This document shows, in pieces, positions 2,329 to 57,659 of a stretch of DNA of 64,000 nucleotides (its first letter is position 1; each line of letters starts with the position of its first letter). The notes under the pieces are model-generated. The model did no database searches. It was not told where the DNA came from and saw only the letters and a list, made by a program, of their open reading frames with translations. Position numbers and translations under genes: made by a program. Source of the DNA: Lentisphaera profundi (GTDB taxonomy: Bacteria; Verrucomicrobiota; Lentisphaeria; Lentisphaerales; Lentisphaeraceae); the NCBI RefSeq assembly GCF_028728065.1, contig NZ_CP117811.1, positions 434,001 to 498,000 of the forward strand. Reading direction: 5' to 3'.

Positions 2329-3876
2329 TCAAAGGTTAGCTGGTGACATAAAGAGTTCGGTATTTTTACCTGTGCCTCCGACGCGGTTTTTATGTCTTTT
2401 CCATTGGATAACTTCAGCTCTTTTTATAGATTGCATATCTTGTTCTTGCATGAATTGGACTAATTCATTTGCGGACTCTCTTTTTTTTATGGCCTCTAAA
2501 GCGTAGTCACCAATTTTCGACATGTGCTGACTTAGCTTTGCTCTAAGTTGTTTAAGTTGGGTTTGGTACGCTGGATTTTTAGCTAAATTATTAAGGCAAT
2601 CAGGATCATTCTCTAGGTCATAGAGTTCTTCAAGTTCTCTGAAGCTTAGATGATTGAAGCGCTTTGCTACTGTAGGATCAGTTTTTGCGAGTTCCTTTAT
2701 TACCTTATAGGACTTATGAAATGAAGAAGCACTCGAGAAAGTTCGTTTTCCATCTGACCAAGGGTTAAATATATAAGCAAACTTTTTGTTGTGTACGGCA
2801 CGAGTAGGGTAGACTAAACCGATAGCATTTTCGTTGAATTCGGCGAAAATATGATCACGGTACTTTTGTGTTTTTCCTTGAATAAGCGGTAAGAAAGATC
2901 TTCCTTCTAAGCCTTTTACTTTGCGGATTCCGCAAATATTGAGAATCGTTGGAAAAAAATCAACTGCAGAGATCATGTGTTCAGTGTCTTTTGAGCCGGG
3001 CTTAATTTTTTCTGGCCACTTCATTACCCATGGTGTGCGAATACCATTTTGATACAGAGATGATTTTGCAAAAGGAAGTGGCATGCCGTGATCAGAAACA
3101 AAAATCACTATGGTATTCTCTTCATAGGAACTATCTTTCAGGCTTTTAAGGATGGCACCTACACAATCATCGGCACGTTTTACAGAATTGTAGTAATTAC
3201 GCATTTCGATTTTTACGCCTGGATGTTTGGGTAGGAACTCAGGGATGGTAATTTCCGAGCTTGTATAAATGCGGCTAGGCCCATATTCGTCGAAACCTGA
3301 TTCAGTAGATTTAGGATCCTGGTAAAAGGGTTTGTGTGGGTCAGCAATATTGACAAGGCAGTAGAAAGCTTTGTTTTTTTCGTCAAGGAGAGAAAAGAAA
3401 TCTTTCATACCTTGAGCATAAACTTGGGCGCCACGTTTTTCAGCACCTTTGAGGATAATAGATTGATCCCAATATTTTTCATAATCACCGCTAAAACTAG
3501 TGTCACGAGGCTTGTTGATAACTGCAGTGAAGTAGCCATTATTTTTCAAAACCTCAGGCAACATGGGGTAGTTGGCATTGACCATATAAAAGCCGCGCAT
3601 GCCACTGCTACTAGGGTAACGGCCACTTTGAAAGACAACTCTAGATGGCGAGCAGTTAGAAGCTTGAACGTAGGCCCGTTCAAAGAGCATACCCTCATTG
3701 GCAATGCTATCAATATTAGGGGTAATTTCCGGAAGCTTGCTCCCGTAGACTCCAACAGAATCCCAGTTCATGTCATCGACGGTGATAAAAAGAATATTGG
3801 GTTGTGCCTTATCTGCTAATATGAAGTTAGCATTGAAAATGAGCAAAAGCGTGGCTGTGAGTATTTGATTAAACAT
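2329..3876 (-). CDS. Secreted type-I sulfatase
   Basis: A 515-residue sulfatase of the alkaline-phosphatase superfamily, with a signal peptide (about residues 1-21). The metal-binding Asp pair is VDD at 33-35. The formylglycine signature is NCSPSR with Cys75, the residue that must be oxidised to formylglycine. SDHG lies further on, near residue 255. It should hydrolyse sulfate esters, probably on a polysaccharide or oligosaccharide outside the cytoplasm; the substrate cannot be read from sequence. It starts 24 bases after the next sulfatase stop, with AAGGTC before the ATG, so the two are probably cotranscribed. The sigma-factor gene follows. Confidence 0.93.
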   Translation of the reverse strand: MFNQILTATLLLIFNANFILADKAQPNILFITVDDMNWDSVGVYGSKLPEITPNIDSIANEGMLFERAYVQASNCSPSRVVFQSGRYPSSSGMRGFYMVNANYPMLPEVLKNNGYFTAVINKPRDTSFSGDYEKYWDQSIILKGAEKRGAQVYAQGMKDFFSLLDEKNKAFYCLVNIADPHKPFYQDPKSTESGFDEYGPSRIYTSSEITIPEFLPKHPGVKIEMRNYYNSVKRADDCVGAILKSLKDSSYEENTIVIFVSDHGMPLPFAKSSLYQNGIRTPWVMKWPEKIKPGSKDTEHMISAVDFFPTILNICGIRKVKGLEGRSFLPLIQGKTQKYRDHIFAEFNENAIGLVYPTRAVHNKKFAYIFNPWSDGKRTFSSASSFHKSYKVIKELAKTDPTVAKRFNHLSFRELEELYDLENDPDCLNNLAKNPAYQTQLKQLRAKLSQHMSKIGDYALEAIKKRESANELVQFMQEQDMQSIKRAEVIQWKRHKNRVGGTGKNTELFMSPANL

Positions 3877-3900
3877 AAATGACCTTAGTGTTATATGAGC

Positions 3901-5478
3901 TTACTTAATGACTTCAGCTTCGTGATTAGTGATATATTTTTGATTGGGCTTTGAAACATCTTTGGGCTGATTTTTGGGGACCTTGTGTTGAATTCGTAGT
4001 GCCTGTAATTCACCCTTCATAGCTTCGACAATAGGGGCGTATTCTGGATTAGAAAATTGGTTAGTCATTTCTTCGGGATCAGATTTTAGGTCATAGAGCT
4101 CCCATTCATCAATATCATAAAAGTACATGAGTTTATAGCGCCCGTCATAGGCACCTTCGTGACGTTGAACCATGTGCCACCCAGGAAATTCATAATAGTG
4201 ATAATAATGAGTTTTTCTCCAGTCCTTAGGCGTCTTGCCTTCAAGTATTGGTAGGAGTGAGGCGCCTTGCATATCTTTCGGAATATTTTGTTTGGCAATA
4301 TCCAAAAATGTTTCGGCAAAGTCAAGGTTCGATACTAAGTCCTTATTTACGCTGCCGGGAGTAATATGGTTGGGCCATTTTATGAGTAAAGGGGTGCGAT
4401 AGGATTCGTCATACATGAAACGCTTATCAAACCAGCCATGTTCGCCAAGATAAAAACCTTGATCAGAAGAGTAAATGACGATGGTATTTTTATCGAGTCC
4501 AGATTCTTCTAAGTAGTCCATGACTTGACCGACTGATTCATCTACTGATTTGATACAGCGCAAATAATCTTTGACGTAGCGTTGGTACTTCCAACGAATA
4601 AGATCTTCACCTTTTGGTTTTGCCTTAAGAAGTGCTTGATTCTTTGCTTCGTAAGCGGCATCCCAAACTTTGACTTGTTCAGGAGTCATGCGCTGGTGAA
4701 TTCGTTGCGCAAGTTGACCCTTCTTATCGAACTCTCGTACTTTTAAATCCTTTCCAAGTTCCATGGAGACTGCTATGGACATGTCTTGATTTCTCGCTGC
4801 GTGACCGCGATTTTTATAGTCGTCAAATAGAGAACTCGGCTCGGGCATTGTAATGTTGTCGAAGGCATTGAGGTGTTTAAGAGCGGGAGACCACTCTCTA
4901 TGAGGCGCTTTATGCTGCATCATTAACATGAAAGGTTTTGTTTTGTTTCTTTGAGTTTCAAGCCATGCCAAAGCCTTGTCAGTTACAATTTCTGTGCAGT
5001 AACCTTGGACTCTAGTTCTACCTTGAGGAGTATCAAAATCGGGGTTGTAATACATGCCTTGGCCTGGGAGGATTTCCCAATGATCAAAGCCGGTGGGTTT
5101 AGAACCTAAATGCCATTTGCCGATGACGGCAGTTTGGTAACCAGCTTTTTGTAGCAGTTTAGGGAATGTTTGTTGTGAGCCATCAAACTTAGTATGCTCG
5201 TTCACCATGAAGCCATTTAGGTGAGAATACTTGCCAGTTAAGATTGTCGCACGACTTGGTCCACAGATTGAGTTGGTCACCATGCAGCGTTTAAAGAGCA
5301 TGCCTTCATCTGCCAAGCGATCTAAGTTCGGAGTGGGCGCGACTTGCGCAAAACGCCCGCCATAAGCACTAATGGCTTGAGTGGCGTGGTCATCGCTAAA
5401 AATAAAGAGGATGTTCGGCGTACTGGCGAACAAAGACGAAGTTAAAGCGAGACTTACGGTGACTAGTTTTATAATCAT
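3901..5478 (-). CDS. Secreted type-I sulfatase
   Basis: A 525-residue sulfatase with an N-terminal signal peptide (cleavage near residue 18). FSDD carries the first metal ligands (D29, D30). The formylglycine site is ICGPSR, Cys72, followed by [11 protein letters not shown] later SDQG near residue 340 provides further metal ligands. The C-terminal part has [12 protein letters not shown]-type residues typical of the family. It is clearly divergent from the neighbouring sulfatase (different core motifs, different spacing), suggesting different linkage specificity. It lies between a pseudopilin-like gene (21-base gap) and the other sulfatase (24-base gap), within a likely operon. Confidence 0.93.
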
Positions 5479-5499
5479 TAAAATTTCCAGTAGTTAAAG

Positions 5500-6146
5500 T
5501 TAAGGAATCCAGAATTCAGTGGTATTAGCTTCAGTACCAATGATGAGTAGTTGACTGCCGGTGAGTACACTGACGTGACCGTCAAGGTAAACGATATTGG
5601 CTTTGCTGTTATGGCGAGCAATGGCTTGCTCCGAGACGGTATCGTAGACTTTAGTTTCAACAAGGTTGTATTTGAATAGCGTGTTTTTCAAGTCCCAGGA
5701 GTCCATGTAAAAAGCCGTTGTGTTACCATGTGTACTAGAGATGGGATAGGCTGTGTAAGTGGTTCCGCCATCATCGATGAGACCGAGGCGATAGTTTTGA
5801 GAATAATTATTGGTCCAATAGCTATCAAGTTCTTTTCCCATGGGGCATTTATAGGGACTAGTATTAGCATTGTTAGTAGCAGCAGTGATTTCTGGTAGAT
5901 ACCCCCTTGAGAGAGTTTTTTAGGCCACCATTCGCTTGCGAAAGAATCATTCAGTGGTGCATAGTTATCATTGTCATCCGCATAGATAAATGATGCCGTA
6001 GATATTTGCTTGAGTTTATTTTTACATACACTTGCTCTCGCCTTCTGTCTTGCTTCGCTAAGTTCAGGAAGAACTAAGCTCGATAGGATACCGATTATGG
6101 CGATGACGACGAGTAGTTCTATTAAACTAAAATTCTGTTTTTTCAT
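5500..6146 (-). pseudogene. Prepilin-like H-X9-DG protein, frameshifted
   Basis: The N-terminal part (from 6146) has a type IV prepilin-like leader: short basic start, [16 protein letters not shown] hydrophobic helix with Glu5 after the processing site. The reading frame then breaks. The C-terminal part continues in another frame to 5500 and carries the H-X9-DG signature (H-NSKANIVYL-DG). The intact paralogue just upstream aligns across the break. The break sits at a C5 run (5902-5906, G5 in the coding strand); one extra G would restore continuity to YLPEITA. So it is either a recent inactivation or a homopolymer sequencing error. GAGG precedes the ATG. The function of this family is not established; it may be an envelope-exposed pseudopilin. 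Confidence 0.8.
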
Positions 6147-6253
6147 AATAACCTCTACTTGTTTATAAGTATCTATTCGTCGTCTTCATGAATAGGGGGA
6201 CAGTATACAACCTTATTCTTTAATTTAATTCATCATTTCACAAAATTGAAATA

Positions 6254-6898
6254 TTAAGGAACCCAAAAATCAGTTGTTGAAGCCTCTGTCGAAATTTGTA
6301 TGAGATAAGTACCGTTAAGTGCTTCGATGTGGCCATCAATAAATGAAGTATTGGCTTTTTGTAAATGACGCCCGACTCTTGCTTCAGGATCAGCGTTAAA
6401 AACTTTATTTTCTGTAAGATTGCCTTTCCATAAAGTGGTGTTGGTCATGAAGGAATCCATATGTAGGACTGTTGAGGAGGCATGCGTACTAGTGAGGACG
6501 TATTGATCATATGCTGTGCCACTTTCACTTGTTAATCCAAGGCGAAAATTTTGTGAGTAATTACTTGTGTAATATGTGTCGAGCTCGACGCCCTCTGGAC
6601 ATTTGTATGGGCTAGAATTAACATTGCTATTACTTGCAGAGATTTCAGGTAGGTATGATTGAGTTGAAAGTCGTTCGGTCCAATAATAAGTAGAGTGTGA
6701 ATTGTTATAGCTTGCGTAGTTGTTATTGTCCATTGAATAGGCAAAAGTGGCTATGCCAATTTGCCTGATTTTACTTTGACAAAGAGTGAATCGTGCTTGT
6801 TTACGCGACTTCCCTAAGATAGGTAATAAAAAGCTTGTTAGTATGCCTATAATAGCAATTGAGACTAGTAATTCGATTAGAGTGAATTTCTTTTTCAT
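6254..6898 (-). CDS. Prepilin-like protein with H-X9-DG domain
   Basis: 214 residues. The N-terminus is a prepilin leader (MKKKF^TLIELLVSIAIIGIL), recognised and methylated by a PilD-like peptidase in related systems. The C-terminal part holds the H-X9-DG signature (H-LQKANTSFI-DG near residues 178-189) and ends in WVP. AAGGAAA precedes the ATG. It is a paralogue of the next gene downstream, about 107 bases away. In Lentisphaera-type genomes many such genes lie beside sulfatases, and here the pair is directly upstream of two of them. Its role (pseudopilus subunit, surface fibre or substrate capture) is unknown. Confidence 0.85.
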   Translation of the reverse strand: MKKKFTLIELLVSIAIIGILTSFLLPILGKSRKQARFTLCQSKIRQIGIATFAYSMDNNNYASYNNSHSTYYWTERLSTQSYLPEISASNSNVNSSPYKCPEGVELDTYYTSNYSQNFRLGLTSESGTAYDQYVLTSTHASSTVLHMDSFMTNTTLWKGNLTENKVFNADPEARVGRHLQKANTSFIDGHIEALNGTYLIQISTEASTTDFWVP

Positions 6899-7044
6899 TT
6901 GATTTCCTTATAAAATGTATTTACTCACTATTTCGTATTAAAGATGAGTAAAGGGACAGGAAATGAAAAAGAAATTTAAGTTTTTTATTTGATGAAAATT
7001 AAGAGTTGAAAGACTAAGGATACAGCGGGTTTATAATGACTATA

Positions 7045-7765
7045 TTATTCTATTTTTCTCAGCATCATTAAGCGGAAATCCATAACTTGTGGGCCGGGAA
7101 TTTTTAGAGCCTGAATTTTTATTTTTTGTGGTCCTCCCAAAAACGATCTGGAACCTACATGGGCGAATGCGGTGTGTTGTAAGGTAGATAAACTAAAAAA
7201 GGTTTCTTACTATTCTTGTCCATGAAGTTTATTGCTTTGTCAGTGAAATCATCTACACAAAAACCTTTGCCTTTTACAATTTTGCCATTGTGTTCCAGCA
7301 TTGGAGAATAATAATTTCCCCAATGACTCGAACAGAAACCGTAAAACTCATCAAAGCCACGGCCATTGGGGTGGTAGGGGTACTGCATGCCGCTATGCCA
7401 TTTACCAAAGGCCCCGGTGGCATAGCCTGCAGCTCTAAAGACATCTGCCAATGTTTTTTCGTCAAGATTAAAGCGTTCGCCGCCTTCTGAAGTACTGCAC
7501 ACTCCGCTACGAAAAGCATAGCGTCCCGTCAGAAGTTCAGCTCGCGTTGGTGAACAGACAGGCTGAACGTAAAAATTGTTGAACTTGGCGCCGTCTCGAG
7601 CGAGTGAGTCTATGTGTGGTTCGATAGATCTTTGTTACCATTAATACTTAAATCACCCCAGCCCTGATCATCACTTAGAAAGATGACTATATTGGGCCTT
7701 GTGGACTCTGCAAAAGCTGAGCCAAGGATAAATAAGACTAATAAAGAAAAAGTTTTCACAGTCAT
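7045..7765 (-). pseudogene. Decayed secreted sulfatase
   Basis: ATG at 7765 overlaps the preceding stop as TAATG. It starts a signal peptide followed by PNIVIFLSDDQGWGDLSING, a typical sulfatase beginning. The frame breaks near 7625-7640 (one base missing). The next frame continues [15 protein letters not shown] and [14 protein letters not shown] (Cys formylglycine site) through [13 protein letters not shown] to YNTPHSPM, then meets an in-frame TAG. Readable residues VPDRFWEDHKK follow before a further stop. A last shifted fragment, KIQALKIPGPQVMDFRL, ends at 7045 and looks like the C-terminus of another coding sequence. About 300 residues of the catalytic domain are absent. It therefore carries a frameshift, a nonsense codon and an internal deletion. 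Confidence 0.87.
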
Positions 7766-12325: not shown

Positions 12326-13699
12326 ATGAAATATATGTCAATTTTAGCGCTCTTAATTTTTGCGCTACTCGCAAATGCTCAAAAAGATAAACCCAATGTG
12401 ATAGTGATATTTGCGGATGATATGGGTTATGGCGATATGAGTTGTAATGGCAATCCATCGATCAAAACTCCTCATTTAGATCGCATGGCCTATGAGGGGC
12501 AAAAATGGACAAACTTTTATGTGGCAGCACCGGTATGTACGCCGAGTCGTGCGGCTTTAATGACCGGACGTCTTCCTATTCGCAATGGCATGAGCTCTAA
12601 TAAGAGACGGGTATTGTTTCCCGATTCTACCGGAGGATTACTGCAGGTTGAGTATACTCTCGCTGAAATGTTTAAATCTGCGGGTTACGCAACCGGCATG
12701 GTAGGTAAATGGCATTTGGGCCACAAAGCGGAGTTCCTCCCGATTAATCACGGTTTTGATTCTTGGTATGGGATACCATATTCAAATGATATGGATGGAG
12801 ATTCCCAAGTGATAAATGCGCTAAAAAAAGGTGAGAAACTGCCTTGGCATAAGGGGCCTCATTGGGAGAACCCAAAATCTGAGTATTGGAATGTTCCTTT
12901 AATGCAGGGAGATAAAATCATTAAGCGCTCTCCGAATCAGGAACTCTTAACAAAAAATTATACAGAGAAAGCTATTGACTTTATTAAAGCCAATAAAGCC
13001 AAGCCATTTTTTCTCTACTTGGCACATAGCATGCCGCATGTGCCGCTCTTTCGTTCAGATGATTTTAAAAATGTGAGCACAATGGGTCTCTATGGCGATG
13101 TGATTGAAGAACTTGATTGGTCAGTTGGGGAGATTATTAAAAGCGTGAAGGCAGAGGGCTTAGCGGAGAAAACAATTATTTTATTTACCTCAGATAATGG
13201 ACCATGGTTAAGTTTCAGGACTCAAGGCGGGATTGCAGGACCATTGAGAGATGGCAAAGGAAGTACTTGGGAAGGGGGTATGCGTGAGCCCACAGTATTT
13301 TGGGGGCCCGCCTACATTAAGCCTGGAATCATTCATGATATTGGCTGTACTACGGATATGATGGCGACTTTTGCTAAATTAAGTGGTGCTAAGCTTCCTG
13401 AGGTGAAATTGGATAGCTATGACCTAAGTGAGGTTTTGCTCAATCAAGAAAAAGGACCTCGTCAAGAGATGTTTTATTATAACGGTGAAAAGCTTCAAGC
13501 ACTGAGGTTAGGTAATTTTAAAGTGCGCTTTGGAAATGATCAGCAAAGGCCGACTGAGCTTTATAACTTAGCTTTGGATCCGGGTGAAAATTATAATGTC
13601 ATTAAAGATCATGCAGAGCTCGTGAAAGAAATGCAGACCTTGAGACAAGCTCATGTAGATGGAATCATTAAAGTAGAGAATCAATTAATCCGCAAATAA
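12326..13699 (+). CDS. Secreted type-I sulfatase
   Basis: 457 residues, with a signal peptide ending near Ala18. FADDMGYGD carries the first metal ligands (D31, D32). The formylglycine signature is VCTPSR with Cys71, then AALMTGRLP. MVGKWHLG (Lys and His) and TSDNG complete the active site, and the GKGSTWEGGMREP segment is typical of the arylsulfatase A-like group. It should release sulfate from an exported or external substrate. It is divergent from the isomerase/dehydrogenase unit and precedes a ThuA-like gene by 108 bases. Of the sulfatase relatives in this window it is the closest to the decayed copy. Confidence 0.93.
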   Translation: MKYMSILALLIFALLANAQKDKPNVIVIFADDMGYGDMSCNGNPSIKTPHLDRMAYEGQKWTNFYVAAPVCTPSRAALMTGRLPIRNGMSSNKRRVLFPDSTGGLLQVEYTLAEMFKSAGYATGMVGKWHLGHKAEFLPINHGFDSWYGIPYSNDMDGDSQVINALKKGEKLPWHKGPHWENPKSEYWNVPLMQGDKIIKRSPNQELLTKNYTEKAIDFIKANKAKPFFLYLAHSMPHVPLFRSDDFKNVSTMGLYGDVIEELDWSVGEIIKSVKAEGLAEKTIILFTSDNGPWLSFRTQGGIAGPLRDGKGSTWEGGMREPTVFWGPAYIKPGIIHDIGCTTDMMATFAKLSGAKLPEVKLDSYDLSEVLLNQEKGPRQEMFYYNGEKLQALRLGNFKVRFGNDQQRPTELYNLALDPGENYNVIKDHAELVKEMQTLRQAHVDGIIKVENQLIRK

Positions 13700-52671: not shown

Positions 52672-52777
52672 CTTTTTATTTTGAAAAGCCCTTTTTTTGT
52701 ATTTGAGTATTGAGTAAAGGCATTTGTTTATAAAAATTAGCAAGTAGTTTATATTCTAATATAAGGTGAGTGTTGAT

Positions 52778-53689
52778 ATGAATTTTGCAGATTTACTGAA
52801 TCCAAAATTAATTCTATGTGACCTTCAGGCTGAAAGTCATGAAATGGTTTATTTGGAAATGCTTGAAGCGTTGAAGTCCCAATGTAAGGATATTTCTGAG
52901 CCAAGGATAATTTTAAAAGATATTTTAGAACATGAAAGATTAGTAGATATGCCCTATGATGTGGGCTTTGCTATACCTCACACTCGTTCAGCAGGAGTCA
53001 GTGACTTACATTTAGTTCTTGGTATTCATAAGAAAGGAATTAAACTTCAAGATTGTGATCAAGAAAGAAGCAAAATCATTATTCTTTTCCTCGTTTCTAC
53101 GGAAACTTCAAAAATCTATCTACTTATATTGAAGGCTTTGGCTCGCTACTTTTCCAGTCCAGGGATGAGCGATAAACTTGCGTCATGTAATAGCCCAAGC
53201 GAAGTTATCTCACAGTTTCAAAAAGATAAAGTTGAGATTAATCACAGTATTAAAGCAGAAGATATTATGAGTACGTCAATGGACTGTATGCCTGAGTCGG
53301 GTATGCTGGGCTCAGCGATTGATGTATTGGCACAAACAAAGCGCTTACACATTCCGATTGTAGATTCTGATGGCCGATTGATTGGAGATTTTAACATCGA
53401 TTCTATTCTTCAAGGCTCAGTACCAGATTATATAAGGATGATGGATAATTTAAATTTCTTGCCAGAATTTGAGCCTTTTGATAAAATTTTAAAAAATGAA
53501 GATCGAACTCCTGTGAATAAATTTATTGATCATGAACCAAATACCTGTAAACGTGAAACGCCTTTAATGGATGTAGTGATAAGATTTATTAAAGATAAGG
53601 TGACTTGTTTATATGTTGTCGATGAGACAATGCACCCCGAGGGTGTTATCACCAAGCATGAACTCATTAGCAATTTGTTGAGATCATAA
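52778..53689 (+). CDS. PTS EIIA (fructose/mannitol type) fused to a CBS-domain pair
   Basis: 303 residues from the ATG at 52778, with AAGGTGAG upstream; a GTG at 52766 is the alternative. Residues 1-150 are a PTS EIIA type-2 domain, and the phosphorylatable His is probably His68 (GFAIPHTRSAG). Residues about 165-300 hold two CBS motifs (AEDIMSTSMDCMPES, HIPIVDSDGRLIGDF; and ETPLMDVVIRFIKDKVTCLYVVDE). No EIIB/EIIC is adjacent. The single-base overlap with a transporter gene suggests that it regulates that transporter through phosphorylation and/or adenine-nucleotide binding. Confidence 0.88.
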   Translation: MNFADLLNPKLILCDLQAESHEMVYLEMLEALKSQCKDISEPRIILKDILEHERLVDMPYDVGFAIPHTRSAGVSDLHLVLGIHKKGIKLQDCDQERSKIIILFLVSTETSKIYLLILKALARYFSSPGMSDKLASCNSPSEVISQFQKDKVEINHSIKAEDIMSTSMDCMPESGMLGSAIDVLAQTKRLHIPIVDSDGRLIGDFNIDSILQGSVPDYIRMMDNLNFLPEFEPFDKILKNEDRTPVNKFIDHEPNTCKRETPLMDVVIRFIKDKVTCLYVVDETMHPEGVITKHELISNLLRS

Positions 53690-55065
53690 TGTTCTGGTTG
53701 GGTACTTTAATATTCCTCGGAACCTATGTAGTTATTGCCAGTGAAAAAGTTCACAAAAGTGCCGCTGCAATGGGGGGAGCTATGCTCATGCTTTTGTTTG
53801 TTTTACCTGGTGTGAATCATGGGAATCAGGCAGCTGATATAAGTAGTGGAGATAATCTTCCACTGGAGACAGTAGCGGAGAATCAAGGGACTGTTGCATT
53901 ACACTTAGATTCTTTTGCCCAAAATATAAATTTTGATGTGATCTTTACCTTGGCAGGAATGATGGTCTTAGTTAATGTTTTGAGTGAAACGGGCTTGTTT
54001 CAGTACGTTGCGATTAAATCTGCGAAGATAGCAAAAGGCTCTCCTATTAACACTTTATTACTATTGGTATTTGCGACAGCTATTCTATCAGCATTTTTAG
54101 ATAATGTGACGACTATTTTATTAATAGCACCCGTAACCCTAGTTGTAGCGGCAGAACTTGAAGTACCGCCAATTCCTTTTTTGCTTTGCGAAACTATGGC
54201 ATCTAATATAGGTGGTTCTGCGACTTTAATTGGTGATCCACCCAACCTGATTATCGGTTCTTATGCGGGACTTTCTTTTAGTGCATTTATGGTTAACCTT
54301 TCGCCATTTATTCTAGTGTGCTTATTCTTTTATATGCTTGCTCTATGGTTTTATTATCGCAAGAGAATGGTAGTTACCATAGAGAAGCGTGCGAGAATCA
54401 TGGCTTTCAATGAAAAAGAAGCGATAACAGATAAAAAGAAATTAATTAAGGGGGGCAGTATTATGCTCCTGACCTTACTGGGTTTTTTATTCCATGGGAT
54501 GTTGCATCTTGAGCCATCGGTGGTGGCAATGACGGGGGCTACATGTGCTCTTATTAGTTGTTCAGATAATGTGGATCATGCATTAGAGAAAATAGAGTGG
54601 GGAACCTTATTTTTCTTCATGGGTTTATTTATACTGGTGAAAGGAGCTGAAGAGGCTGGTTTGATGGATGAGTTAGGTAAGCTTTTAGTCTACATGAATG
54701 ATTGGCATCCTTTGGCCATTATTCTCACCATAATGTGGGTAGGGGGACTTTGTGCCGCTATTATGAATAATGTGTCTTTTACTGCAGCAGCAGTTATTAT
54801 CATTGGTCAATTTATTGGGACGCATGAGTTTTTTGAAGTAAGGCTTCACGAAGAATTACTTTGGTGGGCCTTGGCCTTGGGAGTCTGTTTAGGTGGTAAT
54901 GGTTCTGCTGTAGGTGCCGCGGCAAATATGTGTACAATGGGTATTGCCGAAAAAAATGGCCACAAGATTTCATTTAAAGACTTCTTTATCTACGGGATAC
55001 CTGTTACAATAGTCACCTTAATAGGTGCAAGTGCGTATATTACTCTAAGGTTTTATCAGCTGTAA
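53689..55065 (+). CDS. ArsB/NhaD/CitT-like ion transporter
   Basis: 458 residues with about eleven transmembrane helices, ion-transporter superfamily (ArsB/NhaD). LAGMMVLVNVLSETGLF, SAFLDNVTTILLIAPV, TMASNIGGSATLIGDPPNLIIGS and GLFILVKGAEEAG are hallmark segments shared with NhaD Na+/H+ antiporters and the P-protein group. The ion is not decidable from sequence. It is coupled to the EIIA-CBS gene (TAATG), and its 3' end overlaps the SUMF1-like gene. Confidence 0.9.
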   Translation: MFWLGTLIFLGTYVVIASEKVHKSAAAMGGAMLMLLFVLPGVNHGNQAADISSGDNLPLETVAENQGTVALHLDSFAQNINFDVIFTLAGMMVLVNVLSETGLFQYVAIKSAKIAKGSPINTLLLLVFATAILSAFLDNVTTILLIAPVTLVVAAELEVPPIPFLLCETMASNIGGSATLIGDPPNLIIGSYAGLSFSAFMVNLSPFILVCLFFYMLALWFYYRKRMVVTIEKRARIMAFNEKEAITDKKKLIKGGSIMLLTLLGFLFHGMLHLEPSVVAMTGATCALISCSDNVDHALEKIEWGTLFFFMGLFILVKGAEEAGLMDELGKLLVYMNDWHPLAIILTIMWVGGLCAAIMNNVSFTAAAVIIIGQFIGTHEFFEVRLHEELLWWALALGVCLGGNGSAVGAAANMCTMGIAEKNGHKISFKDFFIYGIPVTIVTLIGASAYITLRFYQL

Positions 55066-56578
55066 GACCCTCTTGAAAGCTATCCCAAGCGGCTCTGTTT
55101 TTAGACTGTTGCTCTAGGGGTAGTTCCTTGAGTTTGTATAAGGGTCGACAGGAACGCATTCCTATATAAGAACCTTTATCATTATTGGAATGAGTGAAAC
55201 GCATTGCGGACCTAGAGTACTTTAATTCAAGAGACCAAGCGCCACCTCGAACAATTTGATAACCACTCTTATAACGTTTCCATTCATTGTAACCCCAGAT
55301 TTCTTCTCCTGGACTCCAAGATAAGTCAGCATTTTTGTCGTTATAATAAAGGTTTCCATTTACGCCTCGTAGCTTATCAAAACTCGTGAGATCGGTATCT
55401 TTATTTTGATCGCCTCTCCAGATGAAAGTGTCCCTGCTACTTTTGTAAATGGGATCTAAAGGATCTTTAGCGGCCCAAATTATTTCACTATTCGTCCATA
55501 GGCCATCGTTATTGGCATCGTGAAAATAAAGGCCTGTTTGACGGCCTTGGCTACGTGTTTCAACTTTGAAGTTGTTTCGGGGTAAAACGATATCTTCAGG
55601 GTGGTCGCCATCATAGATTTTGAAATCCCATGAGTGAGCGTATTGATCTTTTTTGCATTCATAGATGAAAAAAGGTGAGCGGGTGAATTCTTGCATATTG
55701 CCATGGGTATTGAAAAGACCAAAAGCATTTGGTAGCAAGTGATTTTTTTCATAACGAGGAAAGGCGTTGTATTTCGATATTACATATGCTGGAGCAAGCT
55801 TGAGGTCTTTACCGAAGTGCCAAGGAGTATGGCTCCCCGCGCGTGTTGCATATTCCCATTCTTTTTCCGATGGTAAAGTGTAGCTATGTTGAGCGAGATT
55901 GAGTTGTGTATTAAGTGCTTGAAAAAAGAATAAGCAATCATTGAAGCTGACATCCTGTATTGGAAAATCTGGTTTCGGCGTTTTGGCAGGATTTTTGTTT
56001 GTAACAGCCTGCCATGTTTTTTGAATGGTTTCAAATTTTTGTAGATAAAAGGGGTATTTGATCTCGCTTTCATGGAGTAATTCTGTGGAAGTTCTATTGG
56101 CTTCGGTCTGTGGGCTTCCCATGAGAAATTGTCCTGGGGGAATCAGTCTGAATTTCATGCCAAACTTATTTTCTACCTCTAAAGGGAGTCCGTATTTTAT
56201 GATGCATTCACGTTGTAGAATAAGGGTTTCATTCATTTCGGTCGTGTTGTGTGGTGGATGAATGATTGTTTGTTTAAGAGTGCTTTTGAGGTCCACTGGG
56301 AGTTGAGAAAAGGGGGGGGAGAAAGATGCTTGTAGTGAGGTGGAAATTAACTTTGTTTTATCTATTAAGGTGGATTGGGCTGCTTTTGAGTCGCTTTTTA
56401 AAAAAGATAAAGCCAGAGATAGAGTGACTAATAGTAAAGCACCAAGAATTAAAATGGTTTTGTTGCTAGATTTTTTAGTTGCTTTAAGCTGATCGCGGAG
56501 TTGTTTGTCGACTAACTTAATTTTGAGTTTTTCAGCAAGTTTAATTTGTTCTTCACTTAACTTGGTTTTTTTTTTCAT
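55040..56578 (-). CDS. SUMF1/FGE-like domain protein with three EF-hand-like loops, membrane anchored
   Basis: 512 residues from the ATG at 56578 (AAGGA upstream); an in-frame start at 56620 lies inside the LptF/G-like gene. One transmembrane helix lies near 40-60. The SUMF1-like fold begins near residue 140 (FGMKFRLIPPGQFLMGSP) and continues SYTLPSEKEWEYATRAG, GLFNTHGNMQEF and YQIVRGGAWS...MRSCRPL. The Cys pair of true formylglycine-generating enzyme is absent (RGGAWSLELKYS), so it is not expected to activate sulfatases. An insert holds 12-residue DxNxD loops at 354-365, 390-401 and 414-425. The function is unknown. Confidence 0.85.
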   Translation of the reverse strand: MKKKTKLSEEQIKLAEKLKIKLVDKQLRDQLKATKKSSNKTILILGALLLVTLSLALSFLKSDSKAAQSTLIDKTKLISTSLQASFSPPFSQLPVDLKSTLKQTIIHPPHNTTEMNETLILQRECIIKYGLPLEVENKFGMKFRLIPPGQFLMGSPQTEANRTSTELLHESEIKYPFYLQKFETIQKTWQAVTNKNPAKTPKPDFPIQDVSFNDCLFFFQALNTQLNLAQHSYTLPSEKEWEYATRAGSHTPWHFGKDLKLAPAYVISKYNAFPRYEKNHLLPNAFGLFNTHGNMQEFTRSPFFIYECKKDQYAHSWDFKIYDGDHPEDIVLPRNNFKVETRSQGRQTGLYFHDANNDGLWTNSEIIWAAKDPLDPIYKSSRDTFIWRGDQNKDTDLTSFDKLRGVNGNLYYNDKNADLSWSPGEEIWGYNEWKRYKSGYQIVRGGAWSLELKYSRSAMRFTHSNNDKGSYIGMRSCRPLYKLKELPLEQQSKNRAAWDSFQEGLTADKTLE

Positions 56579-56582
56579 GTAT

Positions 56583-57659
56583 TTATTCCTTGAAACTGGC
56601 GATGAAGCCCCAGCTGACAAATATAATTGTACCTAATCCAGCGGCTATAAATGGAGGTAGGATATCATTGCGGCCTAAGTTTATGAAGAGGCCATTGATG
56701 ATGTAATAAATGAGCATTATGCCAATAGCACGAGAAGCAGAGCTCATTCCAGCGGAACGTTGATTGCTGGTAGCAATAGGGATGCCTAATAAAACGCCAA
56801 TAAAGCAAGAGAAGGGAGAGAAAAACAGGGAGAATTTTCGTGTTTCTAGGAAAGCCTTTCGTTTTTCATCAACAGGACGGCCTGAGCTAAGCTCATTATT
56901 TATTTGACTCAGAGAAGGCGTGCCTTTGAGTTCGTCTATATTACTTAATAAGATGGGATCATCTTTGATTTCGGGGCGAGGGTACGTAGCAAGTTTTTGA
57001 ATTTTTTTAATTCTATGGTCATCAGCAAATTCAGCGATACTTACATTTTCGAAATGCCAGCCTAATTCTTTGTTGAAACTACCTGATAAAGCTTCGATTT
57101 CGCGAATAAGCTGCCCCTCTTCATTATATTCTAGGAGTTGGATAGCCGAGAAATTTTTGTCTTCATCAGAACTCAAGGCCCACTTGCGCGTTAGCTTTTT
57201 ATCAAAAGCGGTGAAAACATGAAACTCACTGCTTTTATTCATTGATTCAGCTTTTGTGATCAGTTCAAAAGTTTTAAGCCGAGAATAGGGTTCGATATAC
57301 TCACTAGAGATAAATAGGCCTATGCCTACAAGGATAGAAAATACATAAATGGGAGCGCTTAGTTTAGTTATGGACAAGCCAGCACTGCGCATAGCGGTTA
57401 TTTCATGGTTTCGGTTAAGGCTTGAAAAACAATATATGGTAGCCAAAAGTAAAGACATGGGAGCGATATACGCAAATTTGTCAGGGATATACAAAAAATA
57501 GTAAGTGATGACCTTCCATGTATCATCAAGTTTTAGCATATCCGAAAGATCGTTCTGGACATTAGCAATAAAGAAAACAAAAATGAAACCGCTAGTACAG
57601 CAGACAAAAGGGAGGAGCATACTGCGCATTATATAGCGCGAAAGAATGGAGAAAAACAT
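56583..57659 (-). CDS. LptF/LptG-family LPS-export permease
   Basis: 358 residues. It has helices near the N-terminus (SRYIMRSMLLPFVCCTSGFIF), a periplasmic beta-jellyroll-like middle (about 130-260) and three C-terminal helices, the YjgP/YjgQ plan. NRNHEITAMRSAGLS is the cytoplasmic coupling-helix region. It extracts LPS from the inner membrane together with LptB2. The second permease and LptB are not in the window. It precedes the SUMF1-like gene by 4 bases. Confidence 0.9.
   Translation of the reverse strand: MFFSILSRYIMRSMLLPFVCCTSGFIFVFFIANVQNDLSDMLKLDDTWKVITYYFLYIPDKFAYIAPMSLLLATIYCFSSLNRNHEITAMRSAGLSITKLSAPIYVFSILVGIGLFISSEYIEPYSRLKTFELITKAESMNKSSEFHVFTAFDKKLTRKWALSSDEDKNFSAIQLLEYNEEGQLIREIEALSGSFNKELGWHFENVSIAEFADDHRIKKIQKLATYPRPEIKDDPILLSNIDELKGTPSLSQINNELSSGRPVDEKRKAFLETRKFSLFFSPFSCFIGVLLGIPIATSNQRSAGMSSASRAIGIMLIYYIINGLFINLGRNDILPPFIAAGLGTIIFVSWGFIASFKE

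Follow-up and report, generated by a model that had tools for sequence, protein, structure and literature searches.

We examined a two-gene unit of Lentisphaera profundi (Verrucomicrobiota) that lies in a 64,000-nucleotide stretch of contig NZ_CP117811.1 (assembly GCF_028728065.1, positions 434,001 to 498,000; hereafter the window, whose numbering is used throughout). The first gene encodes a soluble protein that joins an enzyme IIA (EIIA) domain of the phosphoenolpyruvate (PEP)-dependent phosphotransferase system (PTS) to a pair of CBS domains, and the second encodes a transporter of the ion transporter (IT) superfamily. We propose that the first protein regulates the second. The features of the unit are as follows (pLDDT, predicted local distance difference test):

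52763–52770 (+): ribosome-binding-site-like stretch AAGGTGAG, putative, read from the sequence, 7 bases 5′ of the EIIA-CBS ATG
52778–53689 (+): EIIA-CBS regulator gene, 303 aa; PF00359 plus two PF00571 domains; model pLDDT 87.7
52793–53221 (+): EIIA domain, residues 6–148; PF00359; closest solved EIIAs are the PtsN/EIIANtr structures 4gqx and 3urr
52979–52981 (+): codon of His68, the presumed phosphorylation site; His in 169/169 aligned rows (165 distinct places)
53246–53419 (+): CBS domain 1, about residues 157–214; PF00571 and structure model
53420–53506 (+): insert between the CBS domains, residues 215–243; Pro216 in 169/169 rows; candidate docking element
53507–53680 (+): CBS domain 2, about residues 244–301; PF00571 and structure model
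53687–53691 (+): TAATG stop/start overlap, read from the sequence; putative translational coupling
53689–55065 (+): IT-superfamily transporter gene, 458 aa; ArsB/SLC13 fold; model pLDDT 87.5

The regulator is a PTS EIIA of the fructose/mannitol/Ntr type, based on its match to EIIA_2 (PF00359, 66.3 bits against a cut-off of 27) and on the active-site histidine, His68, which sits within an ‘AIPH’ stretch. The equivalog model for PtsN/EIIANtr (TIGR01419) gives 35.5 bits against a cut-off of 138.7; the nearest solved relatives of the domain are nonetheless PtsN proteins. The two CBS domains (PF00571, 52.1 bits against a cut-off of 24) probably make the protein a CBS-pair ligand sensor, for which nucleotide binding is predicted. 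An earlier model-made reading of the window, for which only the letters and their open reading frames were available (the sequence-only reading), had named the EIIA with His68 and the CBS pair, and both stand above the family cut-offs. Its structure model is confident (pTM, the predicted template modelling score, 0.75), and its structural matches begin with AcuB, over the CBS pair, followed by other CBS proteins, many of them nucleotide-bound. No DNA-binding domain was found in Pfam and NCBIfam scans of the protein. Two congeners encode regulators that are 84–85% identical, and since relatives begin at the same Met, the ATG at 52778 is preferred as the start over the GTG at 52766. As already described in the sequence-only reading, the regulator stop (TAA, 53687–53689) overlaps the transporter start (ATG, 53689–53691), by one base.

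The transporter matches CitMHS (PF03600, a broad IT-superfamily family) with 265.2 bits over residues 13–398 (cut-off 31.9), and it is also above the cut-offs of ArsB (PF02040, 71.4 against 22.2 bits) and Na_sulph_symp. It stays below the NCBIfam thresholds of NhaD (47.7 against 577.1 bits), NhaB (31.5 against 640 and 30.7 against 826.1 bits), ArsB (108.3 against 457, 91 against 760, and 88.4 against 415 bits) and MamN (NF040989, 171.3 against 500 bits), as well as that of DASS/SLC13 (TIGR00785, 99.8 against 198.6 bits), whose fold is nevertheless similar. Compared by sequence with solved structures, the transporter profile has ArsB as its closest relative (E 6.7e-33), and the AlphaFold model has ArsB 10tp as its best Foldseek match (template modelling (TM) scores 0.79/0.84), followed by SLC13/DASS carriers. 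Thus, the label ‘ArsB/NhaD-like’ given in the sequence-only reading holds for the fold and fails at the cut-offs of both NhaD and ArsB. Among the best 80 of at least 586 relatives, the named ones closest to the window transporter are Lentisphaeria, such as Victivallis vadensis. Asn173 and Asn404 are both invariant (alignment A5). Human Oca2 retains only the Asn of both SLC13 substrate motifs, according to passages of one study (PMC10372470), and a correspondence of these to Asn173/Asn404 is a candidate only.

The pairing of the two genes extends well beyond the window. In a search of 59 genomes (its own and 58 relatives), 30 loci were retrieved; a full-length EIIA-CBS gene occurs at 24 of them (L009–L031 and L035), with the transporter behind it in all 24, and the other six are EIIA-only. 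For additional matches of this search no locus was retrieved; some of them turned out to be orphans, by which we mean copies with no adjacent transporter. A profile search of 387 genomes gave matches in 346 at E 1e-15, EIIA-only matches included. We read 156 EIIA-CBS places, comprising the best 150 matches of the profile search and six more (five from the 59-genome search and one found beside another). The transporter is directly downstream on the same strand in 141 of these 156 places, which argues that the pairing is not chance, and the median gap between the genes is 9 bp (counted from the first start codon of each frame, so that gaps lean low). No fusion of EIIA-CBS to a transporter was seen among the frames inspected; the long frames of loci L043 and L031 hold EIIA-CBS plus an extra N-terminal part and no transporter. 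At one locus (L106:3559–5774) a transposase-like frame, judged by eye, truncates the transporter behind EIIA-CBS and leaves 244 aa of it. In Cloacimonetes, one locus (L260) has two tandem transporters behind EIIA-CBS and another (L252) has one transporter on either side.

Regulator and transporter also co-evolve. We compared 148 pairs, made up of 139 of the 141 (two transporter fragments of less than 240 residues were dropped) and nine of 13 named loci from a transporter-first survey described below (four duplicates were dropped). The mirror-tree distances correlate with r = 0.845, and 1000 shuffles never exceeded 0.114. Within the 21 genomes that hold at least two pairs (48 pairs), r = 0.818, and swapping partners inside genomes gave at most 0.52, with none of 1000 swaps reaching the observed value. 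Of the quartets passing the distance threshold, 469 of 483 agree, and paralogues in a genome track their own partners. A three-way cut of both trees returns identical groups of 74, 41, and 33 pairs, with the window in the group of 41. The window transporter is 36–37% identical to group-3 members and 25–27% identical to group-1 members (alignment A2). Identities as low as 25–27% between groups indicate that one regulator type stayed with three old transporter subfamilies. Deep nodes of the EIIA tree are weak, and in the transporter tree EIIA-CBS lineages are interspersed with lineages whose CBS-pair partner has no EIIA domain (CBS-only); the EIIA domain may have been gained once and then lost in places, or gained more than once. 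The sequence-only reading had suggested checking whether the pair is conserved, and both the 141 of 156 places and the co-evolution answer that it is.

The regulator alignment has 169 rows, namely the 156 places and the 13 named loci, four of which duplicate counted places and leave 165 distinct ones. His68, Pro67, Pro216, and Gly289 are present in every row, and His68 is kept in all 15 orphan copies too. Glu53 and Arg70 are found in 165 rows and Arg52 in 157. The best conserved of the four blocks is the insert between the CBS domains, with 2.32 bits against 1.81–1.89 for EIIA, CBS1, and CBS2.

Breadth outside the phylum was assessed from the transporter side, on 80 named loci that are the best 80 of at least 586 relatives in a transporter profile scan. 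The best matches lean to EIIA-CBS pairs, because the profile came from EIIA-CBS-paired transporters. A CBS-pair gene adjoins 47 of the 80 loci: 13 are EIIA-CBS and 34 are CBS-only (the neighbour encodes a CBS pair but no EIIA domain, is at most 200 bp away and has the same orientation), and the remaining 33 have neither by this definition. The EIIA-CBS loci are from Lentisphaeria, Spirochaetes, Treponema, Dependentiae, Omnitrophota, Cloacimonetes, and Verrucomicrobia. The CBS-only loci include Nitrospirae, desulfo- groups, Actinobacteria, Patescibacteria, and one Planctomycetota, and 25 of the 33 loci with neither are Firmicutes, based on record titles. The motif P-x-[YH] at the insert start occurs in 33 of 35 CBS-only partners of these transporters (37 rows minus a fragment and an unrelated frame). 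At two loci (L211:2374–3867 and L238:2739–3989) C-terminal CBS pairs are found on proteins of 497 and 416 aa just 5′ of the transporter. Their N-terminal parts have no Pfam match, and other input domains may therefore exist.

The source genome (5.46 Mb, two contigs) encodes the proteins needed to feed such an EIIA. A genome without enzyme I (EI) and HPr would, according to the sequence-only reading, have refuted it; a GAF-domain EI (L039 carries GAF and EI domains) and two HPr genes are present. The EI scores 476.2 against a cut-off of 341.7 for PTS_I_fam and, for the PtsP-type NF008283, 520.3, below the cut-off of 583. With EI and HPr present and the pairing conserved, the PTS control of the transporter put forward in that reading is well supported as a genetic linkage. 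The only trace of an HPr kinase in the genome search was one partial match of 28.4 bits, below the 33.3 cut-off.

Eight EIIA_2 domains are encoded in the genome, the window's included. Three of the others are C-terminal on Na_H_Exchanger-type antiporters (L001, L003, and L006; C1:1989785, 792145, and 95538), one is part of a fusion of an amino-acid permease with EIIA_2 and TrkA_C (L008, C1:2562382), one is fused to a helix-turn-helix (L005, C1:2449507), and two stand alone. Four secondary transporters in this genome are therefore fused to an EIIA domain, and the three antiporters are possible further transporter outputs of the same PTS. Near L005, on the opposite strand and past a LysM-like gene, a DASS/SLC13-like gene was recognised by eye.

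There was no match anywhere in the genome to PTS_EIIC (PF02378), PTS_IIB (PF02302), EII-Sor (PF03609), or EIIC-GAT (PF03611); PF00367, PF03830, and other EIIB families were not searched. For these four families the absence of EIIB and EIIC near the pair, remarked on in the sequence-only reading, thus extends to the whole genome, and among these families the EIIA has no partner with which to form a sugar-transporting PTS enzyme II. The genome fits a regulatory (Ntr-like) PTS, with GAF-EI, HPr, and EIIA and without EIIC of the three families searched. Of 387 genomes sampled from the phylum, 384 have a match to EI (PF05524) and 19 a match to EIIC (PF02378), which is above the cut-off in 16. Among the 114 genomes in which an EIIA-CBS gene was read, one of which (G005) is outside the 387-genome draw, G234 (84% complete) is the only one without an EI match, and EIIC is matched in five. 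Because EI is near-universal and EIIC rare in the sample, and given the EIIC and EIIB negatives in the genome itself, the PTS looks regulatory, and in the source genome it appears to serve regulation only. Regulatory PTS, in which EI is kept without PTS transporters, have been reported in Chlamydiales, Chlorobia, Planctomycetes, and Leptospira (passages of PMC2405797).

A clue to the substrate comes from the upstream gene. Of 39 pairs in the window's group, 27 have a gene for NADP-dependent isocitrate dehydrogenase (icd) as their immediate upstream neighbour in the same orientation; no pair of the other two groups does (0/74 and 0/26, together 0/100). Little upstream sequence was available for one of the 39 pairs and eight of the 100 others, and two pairs with transporter fragments were left unclassed in this count. 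One of the upstream icd genes was scanned and scores 683.9 bits against the TIGR00183 cut-off of 567.3. Before the full count, clustering of recurrent neighbours for 100 pairs had shown an icd cluster at 11 of them; we discounted the largest neighbour cluster (26 loci), which seems to consist of antisense frames. The icd linkage favours a carboxylate as the cargo of this group.

As for the surroundings of the unit in the window, a formylglycine-generating/SUMF-like gene recognised by eye (55040–56620, −) is convergent with the transporter gene and overlaps its 3′ end with its own. Several sulfatase-like genes and prepilin-type proteins were seen by eye in the translations of 2329–7502 and 12326–13699.

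We propose that EIIA-CBS is a dedicated regulatory subunit that would set carboxylate transport from the PTS phosphorylation state and a CBS ligand, and we give this a probability of roughly 55%. The domains, the PTS relay genes, the absence of the four EIIC/EIIB families, the conservation and co-evolution of the pair, and the icd linkage in relatives are observed, and from them we infer binding, the sign of control, the CBS ligand, and the substrate. In the proposed mechanism, GAF-EI would be phosphorylated by PEP and would pass the phosphate to HPr and then to His68 of the EIIA domain, while the CBS pair would read a second ligand, probably an adenine nucleotide. EIIA-CBS may dock on the cytoplasmic face of the transporter, predicted to be of the elevator type, perhaps via the insert that separates the two CBS domains, and whether His68 is phosphorylated would decide if the transporter is active or inhibited. 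PtsN in its unphosphorylated form binds the K+/H+ antiporter YcgO and inhibits it (PMC11808508); by analogy, EIIA-CBS would bind the transporter in one phosphorylation state and release it or relax in the other. The cargo in the window's group would most likely be a di- or tricarboxylate, such as citrate, isocitrate, or 2-oxoglutarate, and a unit with this cargo would couple carboxylate flux to carbon/nitrogen and energy state. In E. coli PtsP, which has been studied better, the GAF domain responds to two opposing signals, glutamine (inhibitory) and 2-oxoglutarate (stimulatory), as stated in passages of PMC13104625.

Several observations weigh against this proposal. All of the support is genomic, and control of the neighbouring transporter could be indirect. 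None of the four pairs of the window's own family (L009–L012) shows the icd linkage, so the substrate may differ there; no icd was found in the 64-kb window, and the rest of the genome was not searched for it. Since the genomes are related, the 27 icd cases represent one conserved arrangement and not 27 events. Position 52 is His, not Arg, in the window and its nearest relatives (six paired rows), and CBS1 positions 206/209, which we take to be the usual nucleotide-contact positions, are Asn/Ser in the window, with Ser/Thr and Asp/Glu prevailing elsewhere. P-x-[YH] is present in 136 of 169 EIIA-CBS rows, and 29 have Phe instead. Two members of the window's family (G003 and G004) have weak EIIA-type matches only and no full-length EIIA-CBS. 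The search profile was built from paired proteins only, and weaker EIIA-CBS proteins fall outside the 150 best. Finally, 15 of the 156 EIIA-CBS copies have no adjacent transporter, with at least 2.3 kb of sequence available at each. Thirteen of these orphans share their genome with a pair. In the EIIA tree all 15 nest inside paired clades, 12 of them in group 1, two in group 2, and one in group 3, and so they look derived.

Other explanations differ on what is transported or on how the regulator works. The sequence-only reading had favoured sodium or proton exchange, that is, the same regulator acting on a cation/proton antiporter. The three EIIA-fused Na_H_Exchanger proteins of the genome suggest that PTS-controlled cation exchange may be a theme, and there is weak similarity to NhaD (47.7 bits) and NhaB (30.7–31.5 bits). 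These scores are, however, far under the respective cut-offs, the nearest fold is ArsB, followed by SLC13/DASS carboxylate and sulfate carriers, and the icd linkage in 27 of 39 pairs points to a carboxylate. We therefore rejected an antiporter as the leading explanation and consider it unlikely. An ArsB-like efflux pump for oxyanions or metalloids, with the regulator tuning detoxification, would agree with ArsB being the closest solved relative in both sequence and fold and with the PF02040 score. The protein is nevertheless below all three ArsB NCBIfam cut-offs, and no ars gene was recognised by eye in the 12 largest neighbour clusters of 100 pairs, for which no dedicated ars search was made. 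Efflux is thus quite unlikely.

Two further alternatives keep the transporter as it is. EIIA-CBS may be merely co-transcribed and regulate expression or another target without touching the transporter. The 15 orphans suggest that some copies may act in trans, and the HTH-EIIA protein of the same genome (L005) that EIIA can be wired to DNA. EIIA-CBS itself has no DNA-binding domain that our scans could find, its derived-looking orphans nest in paired clades, and the strict partner matching within genomes (469/483 quartets), with three divergent transporter subfamilies kept with the regulator, argues for contact; an absence of contact is improbable. It is also conceivable that the CBS pair does the work and that EIIA is just a scaffold or the relic of a graft, given that 34 of the 80 transporter relatives are partnered by a CBS pair that lacks EIIA. 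The invariance of His68 and Pro67 (169/169), the retention of Glu53 and Arg70 (165/169), and the presence of EI in 384 of 387 genomes make this very unlikely.

A wider reading of the dedicated-subunit proposal is tentative, possible rather than probable. The regulators might belong to an ancient family of soluble gating subunits for IT-superfamily transporters across phyla, defined by a CBS pair with a P-x-[Y/H] insert. They would be EIIA-bearing in Verrucomicrobiota, some Spirochaetes, Cloacimonetes, Omnitrophota, and Dependentiae, where transport would be a main output of a permease-less PTS. The icd-linked group would then close a loop, from 2-oxoglutarate made by icd to GAF-EI, EIIA-CBS, and carboxylate transport. 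In most of the genomes sampled in this phylum, EI occurs with no PF02378-type permease, and the pair gives this relay a concrete, testable output. A pair co-evolving across the phylum, together with four EIIA-fused transporters, would make phosphohistidine control of transporters a common bacterial strategy, and the icd linkage suggests a specific physiology, with carboxylate flux tied to carbon/nitrogen and energy state.

CBS-gated transporters, including ClC, offer one comparison; the window regulator differs from them in that its CBS pair, with the conserved insert, belongs to a soluble protein apart from the transporter and is joined there to EIIA. In MgtE, CorB/CNNM, and a c-di-AMP-gated osmoregulatory ABC importer (passages of PMC10710835), a CBS pair allosterically controls transport, as we propose for the window. 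AcuB, an adenine-nucleotide sensor (PDB 9s52; PMC13121692), is likewise a soluble CBS regulator with its partner encoded in the same operon. Unlike the window regulator, it combines the CBS pair with an ACT domain, has no EIIA, and has the deacetylase AcuC as partner.

On the PTS side, E. coli PtsN (YcgO, TrkA; PMC11808508 and PMC13104625) resembles the window regulator in its type of EIIA. It receives phosphate through a GAF-EI (PtsP) and controls ion transporters by protein contact that depends on phosphorylation state, as proposed for the window pair. There, however, one protein serves several targets in trans, whereas in the two-gene unit of the window an IT-superfamily transporter comes with a dedicated EIIA that is joined to a CBS pair. 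LacS of streptococci and lactobacilli (passages of PMC10710835) resembles the window in having a IIA domain permanently assigned to one non-PTS transporter, but it is a cis fusion of the EIIAGlc type on a sugar carrier, without CBS. The permease-less PTS groups have kept EI likewise; the passages of PMC2405797 name a transporter output for none of them, and one is proposed here. Searches of the open-access PMC literature turned up no account of an EIIA-CBS protein with a transporter partner, in line with the sequence-only reading, which knew of no example; the pairing itself is widespread and not unique to the window. EIIA control and CBS control of transporters are each already known, and the EIIA-CBS/transporter pairing appears to be a new combination of the two.

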